33,915 nucleotides of DNA, from the NCBI GenBank assembly GCA_009695265.1, contig SIBE01000012.1, positions 1-33,915 of the forward strand, given 5' to 3'. Source of the stretch: Pedosphaera sp. (GTDB lineage: Bacteria; Verrucomicrobiota; Verrucomicrobiia; Limisphaerales; SIBE01). Position numbers and translations under genes: made by a program. The notes beneath the pieces were generated by a model. That model made no database searches and was not told the DNA's origin. It worked only from the letters and a program-made list of their open reading frames with translations. This document shows, in pieces, positions 7,265 through 20,367 of this stretch (position 1 is its first letter; every line of letters starts with the position of its first letter).

Positions 7265-8437
7265 CTAAACTTTCCCGCAAAAGTCTTCTACCACTTTGCG
7301 GAAAGTATTTTGTGCAACATTGACGATTCGAATTTCGCGCTCGGCATTCTCCGCCGAGTCACTGGCGTGGGCGGCATTGACCATGATGGTTTGTCCGAAT
7401 TCCCGTCGGATTGAACCAGGGGGCGCTTTGGAAGGATCCGTGGGCCCGAGCACGTCGCGAATTTTTCGCACTGCGTCAGGCCCCTCATAGACCAAGGCAA
7501 TGCACTTCTCGGTGCCAGGCTCGTTTTTTAACGGCCCCTCAGCTTCGCCCGGCGTGCGGCCCGCCATGAATTTAACGATGTTATCGAATTGATTGTCGCC
7601 GAAGAGCGGACCTAAAATTTGGCCCAATTGTTTTTCCTCTGCCGGTGGCACGAGAAAACCCAACTCCTTTTCGATCAAAGCCCTGGCTCGCGAAGCAACG
7701 ACGTCGCTCAATTTAGTGCGCAAGACCTCGCGAACTGGTCCGTAGAATTCCGTTGCCTCGGCGACGCTCATGCGATGGACTTTGATTCCGATAATGTAAA
7801 GACCAGTCCGAGAGAAGAAATCGATGACATTGCCGGGGCGCCCGGTGGCAAAGCGGAAGTTGTCCGGTTTGATCAGGACCAAAGTTCGCTCCGGATGTTC
7901 TCCCGGCGGATAGATAATTGTGTTTTCAACTATCCCTCCATCCGTGTCGGAATAGCTTGTCCACAGCTTGAGCTTCGTCGCGGCTTCTTCAGTGTTCGGT
8001 GCAGCCAGGACGGCTGGCTCGAAATACCGGACTTGGTCGTGTTCATCGAGAATTAGATCACCGTAGGTATCACGGATCGTCTCGCCTCCGCGGCGGTGGG
8101 CACTGATGTTTCCGACGACAGCCCGTATTTTACGCACAGCATCGTCGCCTCGGAAGAGAAGCATCATTACGCGCCGGTGCCTCCCCGTCTTAGGATCGGG
8201 CGAGAACTGCTGAATGATGTAATTGTGAATCAAATCTTGAATGCGGCCCTCTTGCGGATCATTGGCGGAAACGATGGCGTCCGAGTATTCTTTCACTAGC
8301 TGCGCGCTCGGCGCGAACATACGCGCGGCCGCCAAATCGAGGCCCGTGCGAGTGATTAAACGAGCCAGAATTCCACCGGTGCGGGACTTATAGAGGGAAT
8401 ATGGCGTGATAATGACATAAGCAAGTTCTTGCGACAT
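7265..8437 (-). CDS. Tandem nucleoside diphosphate kinase-like protein, N-terminal copy degenerate
   Basis: 390 residues with two NDK-like units. The C-terminal unit (about 183-375) has the ATP-site lysine in TLVLIKPDNF (Lys190), RTGLYIIGIKVHRMSVAEA, the AVRKIR and PPGSIRREFG motifs, and the catalytic histidine in NAAHASDS (His357). It could transfer phosphate between nucleoside di- and triphosphates. It carries an extra segment of about 60 residues between FYGPV (231-235) and KFMAG (289-293), where normal NDKs have about 15. The N-terminal unit (about 5-160) keeps the fold motifs (TGGILARLITRTGLDL, DDAVRKIRAVVG, ETIRDTYG) but has ITPYS in place of IKPD, and no histidine at the catalytic position (PAVLAAPN). 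A regulatory or dimer-forming pseudo-NDK is likely. It begins 15 bp after the DUF5679 gene. Confidence 0.88.
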   Translation of the reverse strand: MSQELAYVIITPYSLYKSRTGGILARLITRTGLDLAAARMFAPSAQLVKEYSDAIVSANDPQEGRIQDLIHNYIIQQFSPDPKTGRHRRVMMLLFRGDDAVRKIRAVVGNISAHRRGGETIRDTYGDLILDEHDQVRYFEPAVLAAPNTEEAATKLKLWTSYSDTDGGIVENTIIYPPGEHPERTLVLIKPDNFRFATGRPGNVIDFFSRTGLYIIGIKVHRMSVAEATEFYGPVREVLRTKLSDVVASRARALIEKELGFLVPPAEEKQLGQILGPLFGDNQFDNIVKFMAGRTPGEAEGPLKNEPGTEKCIALVYEGPDAVRKIRDVLGPTDPSKAPPGSIRREFGQTIMVNAAHASDSAENAEREIRIVNVAQNTFRKVVEDFCGKV

Positions 8438-11232: not shown

Positions 11233-11949
11233 TTATTTCCCTTCGAATTCTTTCAACTTTTTCGCCGCCTGAGTGGATCCGCCGGCAGACGCTTTCTGAA
11301 GCCAGGACCGGGCTATGGATTCGTTCTGTTCCACTCCATCGCCCGTCAGGTAGCGCATCGCTAGGTCAAGTTGGGCGGACGGAGACCCTTCGGCCGCGCG
11401 CTTTTGCTGAAACTCCAAGACCTTCAGTTTGGTGGTGGCCGCGAGTGGGTTGGGCTGCGGATTTGAAGCAGCACTGGCGTTGCGCGTGCCAGCGCTGCTA
11501 CCGGTCCTGCCCTTGCCCGCAGCAAGAGGCCGCTGCCTTGTGACGGAGCTACCGACATCAGGCGCGCCGTCCAGCTCGCGGAAAAACGTAATGTCGTCGG
11601 AGCTGTGCCATTTTTTGTCGGGCCCGGCGCATTGGATTTCGAACCCGTTACGAACCCGGGTCAGATGGTAAGGAGTGCCCCACATATCAGCGGCTCTGTC
11701 GCGTTTGCCGCCACCTTTGGCTTCCTCCATGTTGCCGCGGAGGAACTGGCTAAAGCCATCCAACGGCAAGGTGTCCGAGTCCAGCCATTCCATGTAAACT
11801 GCTTGGGCGATGCTTTTAATCTCGATGCCGGCAGTGGTCGCCACTTGGACCTTATCAATGATGTTGAAATTCTTCTGCAAGGCTCCTTTGTTGGCCATGA
11901 GGACGAGGGCAATGGCGGCAGGCGGAAGGATTTTCAGGATCAGGCTCAT
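11233..11949 (-). CDS. Membrane-anchored GspG-like / Sel1-repeat protein
   Basis: 238 residues from the ATG at 11949, which overlaps the TGA of the cNMP-binding gene as ATGA, arguing for translational coupling and joint function. Residues 4-19 form a membrane helix (ILKILPPAAIALVLMA). Residues 88-122 resemble the C-terminal domain of type II secretion pseudopilin GspG: DMWGTPYHLTR, GFEIQCAGPDKKWHSSDDI, with the acidic end that binds calcium in GspG. A low-complexity linker follows. A Sel1-like repeat covers about 182-236 (AEGSPSAQLDLAMRYLTGDGV, ARSWLQKASAGGSTQAAKKL), a typical protein-protein interaction motif. No prepilin peptidase cleavage site is obvious, so it is not a classical pseudopilin. 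Function unknown. Confidence 0.75.
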   Translation of the reverse strand: MSLILKILPPAAIALVLMANKGALQKNFNIIDKVQVATTAGIEIKSIAQAVYMEWLDSDTLPLDGFSQFLRGNMEEAKGGGKRDRAADMWGTPYHLTRVRNGFEIQCAGPDKKWHSSDDITFFRELDGAPDVGSSVTRQRPLAAGKGRTGSSAGTRNASAASNPQPNPLAATTKLKVLEFQQKRAAEGSPSAQLDLAMRYLTGDGVEQNESIARSWLQKASAGGSTQAAKKLKEFEGK

Positions 11950-13892
11950 GCGGCGTGGCGTTCTCTCATTCGTGTCTCGGCCGTAGTCTCGATGACGAGG
12001 CCGGTGAGAAAGTCCTGACTCACCAACCGCATAAAGCTGGCTTTTGACAATTTGAGGCATCGGCCGGTCCGCGCCGCTATTACATCGGCGGTGGCAGGCG
12101 TGTCGCGGAGGAGACTTATTTCGCCGCAAAAATCGCCAGCCCGGAGGATGGCGCGTGATTCGCCACTTTTGCGTACATGGAACTCGCCTTCATAAACCAG
12201 GAAGAACGAATCGTTGGGCTGGTTCTCGCGGATGACGACCTCGCCGGATTTGTACTCCGCGAAAGAAAACTCATTCGATAATTTGATAAGAGGCTGTGGA
12301 TGCCAGTCGGCGAAGAGAGGATTGCGTTTGAGGAATGCGCTGACCTGAACTGCGGACTTGATGGGTGCAGCTCCCAAAGCAGAGACCAGGACCCGTTCGA
12401 AATCCGCCTTGCTCAGCGTCAGGAGGTCGGTGGTTTCCACTGCTCGCGAGCTGGCAGTCCGTGGCACGTGGTCCAACAGGGCGATCTCACCAAACACATC
12501 GCCTCGACCCAGGGTAGCCACGCAACGTGGCTCGCCCGCCTCGTTCTCCTTCAAGACCTCGACCTTTCCTCCAAGAATAACGAACAACGATTCGCCAAGC
12601 TCGTTTTCCCGAATGATCCACCCTCCCGGATGCACGCGCACGTAATTCATTGCGTTTGCGACCTGGCTCAAGTCCGCCGCCAGCAATTGAGAAAACAAGG
12701 GTGTGTTCTGGAGGAATTTCAGGATATCGCCACCAGATGGCCGCGTTCCACCGGCCTGCTTGCGATCCAGGCTGTTTTCCGCGGTAAACCAGCGTGCCGC
12801 AGCAACCCGGTGCAGACCTCGGATCAATACCAATCCGAGGTAAACCACCGGCGCGCCCACCAGCAAAACGAAGGCGAGGAACTCGGCCAGCGGCCCCCAG
12901 AATGCGCCTGGTTTGTCGAGTCGCAGCCAATCCTGGATCATGTGCATTTGCTGCAAATCGAACAGTTGGGAGGCGAAGCGGAAGGCCGCGCCCAGCCACA
13001 GAATTGCGTAGGTGCTATAAACGAGGAAATAGGTTTCCTCGCGGAGTGAGTCGTTCCATTTGAACAATTGGCTCACCATGCGGCTGCGCATGAATTTTTC
13101 CGCGCAACGGGGTAGCTGATAATCCTTGCGGCACCAGGCATGGAGGACGCGGTGGGCGGGAGTGTTACCGAACGGGGAACCGACCATTAGCACGGTGATC
13201 CATCCTGCCAGCAAGCCCGACGGCGAGTCCCAGACCATCGCGCCCAGCGCCACGACGAAAGGCGTGGCCAGCGCTTGCAGCGCGACACAAATCTCGCAGA
13301 GGCGGCCACCCATGAAGGCGTCGCTTGTGTTCACTGCGAAAAATGGAATTCCCCAGCCGACTCTGACTCGGACACCCGACACCAGCCGACCGAAACCACT
13401 CAGCACACATCCGGCCAGCGCGTTGGATAAGCTCAAAGCGAGCATCATGAACAAGAGGACCGTAAGCCAATCCGCCCAGGAATGAACCAGCGTGATCGGC
13501 ATAGACCACAGCGCGGAGGCGCCGGCAAGAATCATCGCAACCGAGAGTCCTATCGCCGAGGTGGCACCCCAGCGGACCCTCCAACGATAGCTGGTCGCAG
13601 GCGTGGTCGCCGGCTCGGCGTCTCCTTCCACCAGAAAGCCTTTGTCCAGTGCGTTGATGACTAGGTCATAAAAGGCGCGGATCTTAAGGTGGCCCTTTTG
13701 CAGGAGCTGAACTTGAAGGATTTCCTGGACCGTGGGACCTCCGGAAAAAGTATCGAGGAGAACCTGCTGATCCGGTCGTAGCGCCAGGTATTCGCCGCGG
13801 ACCGTCTGTTTCATCAGCAAGGTCCCATCGGGCAGGAGTTTCCTTTCGATGTTGCGGGACAGTCTGAATCTGCGTTCGTTAATCGAGGACAT
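11946..13892 (-). CDS. PqqD-like / degenerate M50-like membrane protein with two cNMP-binding domains
   Basis: 648 residues from ATG 13892; a GTG 21 bases upstream is the alternative. N-terminus about 1-90 resembles the winged-helix PqqD-like domain found in front of YydH-type peptide zinc metalloproteases. Residues 110-365 are polytopic and align with that M50 family (VNTSDAFMGGR, compare VDTSDAW in the family). At the HExxH position the chain reads SNALAG (156-161), and at the LDG metal motif it reads VLHAW (249-253), so the zinc ligands are lost. Two cyclic-nucleotide-binding domains follow (about 397-505 and 520-630). The first keeps the phosphate-cassette arginine (GEIALLDHVPRTAS); the second has PATAD in its place. 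No HTH. Overlaps the next gene by ATGA. Probably a nucleotide-gated adaptor in export or processing; not proven. Confidence 0.8.
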   Translation of the reverse strand: MSSINERRFRLSRNIERKLLPDGTLLMKQTVRGEYLALRPDQQVLLDTFSGGPTVQEILQVQLLQKGHLKIRAFYDLVINALDKGFLVEGDAEPATTPATSYRWRVRWGATSAIGLSVAMILAGASALWSMPITLVHSWADWLTVLLFMMLALSLSNALAGCVLSGFGRLVSGVRVRVGWGIPFFAVNTSDAFMGGRLCEICVALQALATPFVVALGAMVWDSPSGLLAGWITVLMVGSPFGNTPAHRVLHAWCRKDYQLPRCAEKFMRSRMVSQLFKWNDSLREETYFLVYSTYAILWLGAAFRFASQLFDLQQMHMIQDWLRLDKPGAFWGPLAEFLAFVLLVGAPVVYLGLVLIRGLHRVAAARWFTAENSLDRKQAGGTRPSGGDILKFLQNTPLFSQLLAADLSQVANAMNYVRVHPGGWIIRENELGESLFVILGGKVEVLKENEAGEPRCVATLGRGDVFGEIALLDHVPRTASSRAVETTDLLTLSKADFERVLVSALGAAPIKSAVQVSAFLKRNPLFADWHPQPLIKLSNEFSFAEYKSGEVVIRENQPNDSFFLVYEGEFHVRKSGESRAILRAGDFCGEISLLRDTPATADVIAARTGRCLKLSKASFMRLVSQDFLTGLVIETTAETRMRERHAA

Positions 13893-14274
13893 GTGTCGAT
13901 CGAGAGAGCTCACTGAGCGTAGGACATGGCGGCTATTTGATTCAAGCCGAAGTTCGGCCTCAGCTTCGGGGTTTGGTTTTTAGATTCGTCAACTTGGATC
14001 CGCTTCGTTTCTCGCCCGCATCTCCGCCCATGCAGTGCGGGTATTGCTCGGTTCGAAGGGGATATCGACGCCGTCAGTCAGGTCCGAGTCTCAGTCCAGG
14101 TTGGAGGTGGTCATTGGGAGGAGTGAATTCTGAAACGTCCGACGGGGCAGGGGATGGATGCCCTTGTATTCGGGACGTCGCAGGTCTCAGCGTCGTGGGT
14201 AGAAGGCGGCGAGGTCTTCGACCAGGAAGGCTTCGCGCGCCATCAAACCTTTCGCAAGACCCATATCGGTTCGT
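13893..14274 (-). other. Intergenic stretch with a possible gene remnant
   Basis: 382 bp between two leftward genes. A 25-residue leftward frame at 14187-14264 (MGLAKGLMAREAFLVEDLAA at its start) reads like the C-terminal end of a real protein but is not recognised. Near 13947-13959 lies the palindrome GCCGAA-G-TTCGGC, close to where the promoter of the cNMP-binding gene should be. Confidence 0.3.
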
Positions 14275-19860: not shown

Positions 19861-20367
19861 ATGATACTAAACGATCTCGTCCCTGCCTCGGAAGTTCGCC
19901 TCCCGTTTAAGTCGGGTCAGACCATCTTCAAAGAAGGGCAACCTGGCGATTTCATGTACATTTTGTTCGAAGGGACGGTTGAAGTGACAATTCAACAAAA
20001 GGTGATCGGAACCTTTGAATCGGTGGAAATTTTTGGCGAGATGGCCGTGATTGACTCCCGGCCACGAAGCGCCACCGTCGTCGCCAAGGCGGATTGCCAG
20101 CTCGCTCGAATCAATAAAGGACGGTTCCTCGCTCTGCTTCAGAACAAACCTGAATTTGCGCCGCTGATCATGCACACGCTCGTCGAGCGCATTCGATGGA
20201 TGGACTCGTTGCATGCGGCCAGCACTCCGGATCAATCGGTCGAATTCGAGAAGCTTCGAGCCGCGAACACAGAGTTGAAGACCATGGTTGCAACCCTCCA
20301 AGAGGAAGTCTCAGAGTTAAAGCTGCAGCTCCAAGAAAGAAGCCAGAGAGCATCGACATCTTCCTGA
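19861..20367 (+). CDS. Stand-alone cyclic-nucleotide-binding protein with C-terminal coiled coil
   Basis: 168 residues. A single CRP-type cNMP-binding fold (about 5-120) carries the glycine turn KEGQPGDFMYILFEGTVEV and a phosphate-binding cassette FGEMAVIDSRPRSATVVA with its arginine, so ligand binding is plausible. There is no helix-turn-helix after it. Instead the last 45 residues (FEKLRAANTELKTMVATLQ and on) form a heptad-rich coiled coil. It cannot be a classical CRP regulator and more likely dimerises with or recruits a partner. It is divergent from the OPT transporter and 98 bp before the NIPSNAP gene. The second messenger is not predictable. Confidence 0.87.
   Translation: MILNDLVPASEVRLPFKSGQTIFKEGQPGDFMYILFEGTVEVTIQQKVIGTFESVEIFGEMAVIDSRPRSATVVAKADCQLARINKGRFLALLQNKPEFAPLIMHTLVERIRWMDSLHAASTPDQSVEFEKLRAANTELKTMVATLQEEVSELKLQLQERSQRASTSS

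Follow-up and report, generated by a model that had tools for sequence, protein, structure and literature searches.

A putative site-2-protease-type pseudoprotease with tandem cyclic-nucleotide-binding domains and a pseudopilin-like partner gene in Verrucomicrobiota

Gene content of the locus

The window analysed here, a stretch of 33,915 nucleotides from Pedosphaera sp., carries two minus-strand genes, A and B, whose 4-nt ATGA overlap was reported in a first-pass annotation of the sequence and is confirmed by our reading frames (Table 1). A GTG start for A at 13913 is possible, but homologues favour the ATG at 13892, which was adopted for that reason. Both genes are present at 95-96% identity in a genome of the same genus (L020), and comparison with it gave dN/dS values of 0.15 for A and 0.19 for B, indicative of purifying selection and hence of a pair that is more than a chance arrangement, with both products maintained as proteins. 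A Pfam scan of A recovered only cyclic-nucleotide-binding (CNB) domains (PF00027, E=6e-39, two stretches). The predicted structure of A (mean pLDDT 77, with residues 250-380 largely below 70) comprises strands and helices in the PqqD-like domain, six long helices in the core (110-130, 139-166, 197-220, 224-237, 286-322 and 332-368) and two CNBs, and the topology assigned to the protein is a prediction drawn from hydropathy and this model. Elsewhere in the window, the product of 7265-8437 (minus strand) matches nucleoside diphosphate kinase (PF00334) in three stretches; at 390 aa it is unusually long for this enzyme.

Table 1. Features of the A-B locus (window coordinates)
Feature	Residues	Positions	Strand	Remarks
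Gene A: PqqD-like, zinc-less M50/S2P-type membrane core, tandem CNB	648 aa	11946..13892	-	ATG at 13892, stop at 11946
A, PqqD-like (RRE-type) domain	1-96	13605..13892	-	Profile homology to PqqD part of intact PqqD-M50 proteins; no Pfam match
A, membrane core, M50/S2P layout	110-378	12759..13565	-	
A, HExxH position (LSLSNALAG)	153-161	13410..13436	-	HExxH absent in 47/47 homologues
A, VDxxDA signature after hairpin	187-199	13296..13334	-	VNTSDAFMGGRLC; conserved, Asp191 in 47/47
A, NPx(n)DG metal-ligand loop position	240-252	13137..13175	-	PFGNTPAHRVLHA; Asp lost
A, CNB1	381-505	12378..12752	-	Cassette FGEIALLDHVPRTAS with Arg478
A, CNB2	506-648	11949..12377	-	Cassette FCGEISLLRDTPATADV, Ala600 at Arg position
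Gene B	238 aa	11233..11949	-	ATG at 11949, stop at 11233; start overlaps A stop by 4 nt (ATGA)
B, N-terminal membrane helix	3-19	11893..11943	-	No prepilin peptidase site
B, GspG-like ectodomain	20-125	11575..11892	-	Calcium-loop-like AGPDKKWHSSDDI
B, Sel1 repeat	190-225	11275..11382	-	

Ancestry of the membrane core

The first-pass annotation read the front of A as PqqD-like and its core as that of a YydH-type M50 peptidase. Single-sequence scans found no PqqD or M50 Pfam match (PF02163 included) in the window's A or in 15 family members, and we therefore gathered 35 intact PqqD-M50 proteins from related genomes, all with HExxH and NPx(n)DG, for profile comparison. Profile-profile alignment (hhalign) of 47 A homologues with this set supported both readings (E=2.6e-9, probability 96, 331 columns), extending from the PqqD part to the end of the membrane core; reversed-profile controls gave E values of 0.15-0.16 and a probability of 0.4, and an earlier, shallower comparison had given E=1e-4. 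In structure searches, CNB matches fill the PDB lists for A and leave no row that pairs the core with a solved S2P, an absence that carries no weight against the fold; BFVD gave one weak match, to a phage M50 protein (E=0.06). Weak N-terminal matches to designed beta-trefoil proteins were taken as chance.

In the alignment, LSLSNALAG falls on the HExxH helix, as the first-pass annotation had proposed for SNALAG, and the motif is present at this site in 0/47 A homologues as against 35/35 intact relatives; HExxH strings in L023, L066 and the second L077 copy lie in another place. The third-ligand Asp of NPx(n)DG, retained by 35/35 intact relatives, is likewise lost among the 47 homologues. Here the first-pass annotation was right about the loss but not about its exact place: it is PFGxxPAH (PFGNTPAH in the window) that aligns with the NPx(n)DG loop, and the VLHAW it had named lies a few residues past the DG position. 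Pro240 at the head of this loop is invariant (47/47). These alignments show A to be a putative pseudoprotease descended from the PqqD-M50 (site-2 protease-type) family, both zinc motifs being lost in all homologues found. None of the 35 intact PqqD-M50 proteins contains a CNB domain.

Tandem cyclic-nucleotide-binding domains

The two CNBs of the first-pass annotation, of which one alone was said to keep the phosphate-cassette arginine, are both recovered by PF00027 and differ as described. In CNB1 the arginine (R478 in the window) is kept in 38/47 family members and missing from nine; in CNB2 it is found in 0/47, the position being occupied by Ala (39), Ser (5), Pro (2) or Thr (1). CNB2 is nonetheless strictly maintained elsewhere, with Gly590-Glu591 in 47/47 and a dN/dS below that of the other three parts of A (0.06 between two close relatives, a rough value because substitutions are few). 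The deep-branch member L082 has, as read from its sequence, apparently a single CNB, with a cassette of the CNB2 type. Judged from these sequences, the constant member of the pair is the apparently 'degenerate', Arg-less CNB2, which is universal, and CNB1 is the one that can seemingly be lost.

The CNB pair structurally resembles the regulatory CNBs of PKA and PKG (Z up to 20). An Arg-less nucleoside sensor is known from trypanosomatid PKA, where it requires Glu at the position of PKA-RI Ala202 (PMC10959531). As CNB2 has Ser (41/47) or Gly (6/47) there, we rejected a nucleoside binder of the trypanosomatid type. Class III cyclase domains were detected in all 20 A-bearing genomes tested, a count that spans A-bearing genomes only and so gives no ground for linking A with a cyclic nucleotide. 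A stand-alone 168-aa protein with one CNB (PF00027, E=6e-22) is encoded at 19861-20364 (plus strand), ~6 kb from the A-B pair.

The pseudopilin-like partner

B had been described as a GspG-like domain and a Sel1 repeat behind a membrane helix. The window's own B has no match to the GspG Pfam domain, PF08334 (T2SSG), which is detected in 12 of 14 B family members (best E=1.4e-4), and the B profile aligns with solved GspG/PulG at E=1e-3, including the GPD...DD calcium loop. Because the structural matches are middling (Z 7.3 to 3g20 and 6.8 to Ca-bound PulG) and the model has a mean pLDDT of 61, the GspG assignment leans on the sequence match. Asp111, Asp118 and Asp119 of the calcium-loop-like motif are invariant; in GspG the aspartates coordinating the calcium site are needed for type II secretion system (T2SS) function (reviewed in PMC10574481). 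No prepilin cleavage motif of the G-FTLIE type occurs in any of the 29 B proteins, which sets B apart from ordinary pseudopilins.

The Sel1 repeat was found in the window's B (PF08238, E=1.7e-8) and in 12/14 members scanned, but eight deep-branch B proteins gave no match to it. The domains of the earlier description therefore stand, whereas Sel1 as a regular component does not: the constant part of B is its pseudopilin-like core, with Sel1 in only part of the family. Among the profiles proposed for checking the pair, PF00027 and Sel1 match the window proteins, T2SSG matches other members of the B family, and PqqD and M50 are reached by profile-profile comparison alone. A 1711-aa ORF in L194 (G077:C136) also matches the B pseudopilin-like profile (E=3e-10).

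Distribution and gene neighbourhood

A was found in 15/146 relatives, 31/384 genomes of the class and 21/387 genomes of the phylum, with named loci including Limisphaerales, Pedosphaera, Kiritimatiellota and Lentisphaerae; it is an old family, patchy across Verrucomicrobiota. Spread by plasmids was rejected, the N-terminal 390 residues having no match in the plasmid collection. Several public bins among L056-L079 whose titles name Akkermansia, Klebsiella or Proteobacteria hold contigs of this Verrucomicrobiota lineage, and the titles are probably wrong; by contig, for example, L056 equals G001 and L068 equals G083.

Of the 15 relatives with A, 14 give a strong B match (E<1e-50), and the contig of the fifteenth stops just past A; the 131 relatives lacking A yield no such match. 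The A tree splits with full support into a B-paired and a B-less side, and mapping of labels requires one change for B pairing and one for receiver pairing. The supported B clade comprises Limisphaerales, Kiritimatiellota and Lentisphaerae; B adjoins A in every member with a long enough contig, and the 4-nt start/stop overlap is found in 27/29 pairs, the exceptions (L080 and L081) being deep branches. The pairing with B therefore has a single origin and is almost always overlapping. In one Lentisphaerae contig (L077, 5388-10408) the whole pair is duplicated in tandem as A-B-A'-B'. Adjacency of the two genes, which the first-pass annotation suggested surveying across Verrucomicrobiota, thus holds throughout the B clade but not in the other A clade, where no adjacent B was found. 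We read the B-less side as Opitutales from its place in the class rather than from a tool result. Seven of its members, forming one group, have a small receiver-domain (CheY-like) gene directly upstream of A, adjoining or overlapping it (L092-L096, L098 and L099), and L084 instead encodes a histidine kinase-receiver protein just downstream of A.

Neighbours were surveyed on codon-scored gene calls, clustering of all ORFs being swamped by antisense and shadow ORFs. The HlyD or ABC exporter context suggested by the first-pass annotation was not borne out: across more than 40 loci neither is a conserved neighbour, and genes for ABC or HlyD proteins, peptidases or precursor peptides do not recur beside A. 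The same survey found no pilus or T2SS genes recurring beside the pair, and other neighbours vary by genome.

Proposed function and alternatives

We propose, with about even confidence, that A is a dead S2P which works as an adaptor in the membrane, responds to nucleotides and has B as its dedicated partner. The RRE-like N-terminal domain and the dead S2P core may still grip a peptide or membrane helix without cutting it, the docked partner being most likely the single membrane helix of B. The GspG-like, possibly calcium-binding domain of B across the membrane, joined in one lineage by Sel1, would in this way be linked with the two CNBs in the cytoplasm. A cyclic nucleotide bound by CNB1 could alter the packing of CNB1 against CNB2 and so change how A holds B or a client protein; CNB2 would serve chiefly in coupling or structure, or would bind a ligand other than a cyclic nucleotide. 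Nucleotide binding at CNB1 and outside conditions, perhaps calcium, might thereby be integrated at A-B; in the clade lacking B, seven members probably receive their input from the receiver-domain protein encoded just upstream. Dead intramembrane proteases serving in regulation or stabilisation have precedents in the iRhoms (PMC3149277) and in the Arabidopsis S2P pseudoprotease EGY3, a protein devoid of HExxH that has a stabilising effect on other proteins of the chloroplast (PMC10978774). Co-translation and co-occurrence of A and B are no proof of a complex.

If B were an unusual minor pseudopilin of a T2SS or type IV pilus-like pseudopilus, A could gate its insertion via cyclic nucleotide. 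Its GspG-like fold and calcium-loop motif would fit, as would the weak B-profile matches that short pseudopilin-like ORFs commonly give in these genomes, but a protein family devoid of the prepilin cleavage motif, with a membrane helix starting at residue 3 and no recurrent pilus or T2SS genes at its side, makes this role unlikely. We assign a similarly low probability to A being a peptide-export or peptide-binding membrane protein derived from YydH-type exporters, in which the CNBs only tune activity and B, across the membrane, stands in as an accessory for the HlyD-like part of the ancestor. Intact PqqD-M50 relatives do bear HlyD-like C-terminal parts, as read in their sequences, and A has kept the PqqD-like domain; against this, B has no HlyD features, and neither exporter, peptidase nor precursor-peptide genes are recurrent neighbours.

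A chaperone-like pseudoprotease in the style of EGY3, stabilising B and other envelope proteins with nucleotide binding secondary, would accord with the strict A-B pairing and with the behaviour of EGY3 itself (PMC10978774), yet one clade retains A without an adjacent B and constraint within A is strongest on the two CNBs, and we consider this reading, too, improbable. Least credible by far is a role in defence, with A as a membrane effector set off by cyclic nucleotides in the manner of Pycsar: PADLOC does report CNB matches to PycTIR and effector profiles, but the matching is limited to the generic CNB part, and the neighbourhood survey revealed no recurrent cyclase or TIR gene nearby and no defence context. 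Returning to the nucleotide-responsive adaptor, its fullest form can be put forward only tentatively, and we regard it as possible rather than probable: a signalling unit across the membrane, not described before, whose dead S2P is controlled by the two CNBs, the universal one working without the usual cyclic-nucleotide chemistry, and holds an unprocessed pseudopilin as a calcium-responsive arm, with a receiver-domain protein replacing that partner in the sister lineage.

Were this correct, A would be a bacterial counterpart of iRhom- and EGY3-type pseudoproteases that carries its own nucleotide switch, and a pseudopilin fold would be employed outside pili and secretion. The role of a dead S2P toward a partner it cannot cut, and the ligand sensed by a CNB conserved without its phosphate arginine, would both become testable.

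Comparison with known systems

The first-pass annotation could put no name to the system, and we found no paper on this combination of domains and genes in the open-licence literature; the pairing of A with B suggests a signalling unit, one undescribed in the literature searched. A shares with YydH-type 'peptide zinc metalloproteases' (PqqD-M50-HlyD) the order of PqqD-like domain and membrane core, the VDxxD signature and the 331 homologous columns, but lacks HExxH and NPx(n)DG, has two CNBs in place of the HlyD-like end and is accompanied by gene B. Its CNB part also matches TIGR03896 (bacteriocin-type transport-associated protein; two stretches, E=6e-15), but the score of 55 bits is far below the cut-off of 161 and no transport genes lie beside A. 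A is predicted to share with EGY3 (PMC10978774) and the iRhoms (PMC3149277) an intramembrane protease fold that selection maintains in the absence of catalytic residues, although these belong to other subfamilies, and CNBs, a PqqD-like domain or a pseudopilin-like partner were not found reported for them. The two consecutive CNBs recall the PKA/PKG regulatory subunits (Z up to 20), from which A differs in being membrane-bound and in lacking the phosphate Arg of CNB2; it also differs from the nucleoside-binding trypanosomatid PKA-R (PMC10959531), whose Glu at the Ala202 position is missing from CNB2. B resembles the major pseudopilin GspG/PulG (T2SSG, PF08334) in the fold of its ectodomain and in its GPD-x(n)-DD calcium loop, but has no prepilin N-terminus, carries Sel1 in some members and is encoded with A instead of T2SS genes. 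Each module is thus already known, and what is new is their combination together with the conserved Arg-less CNB2.
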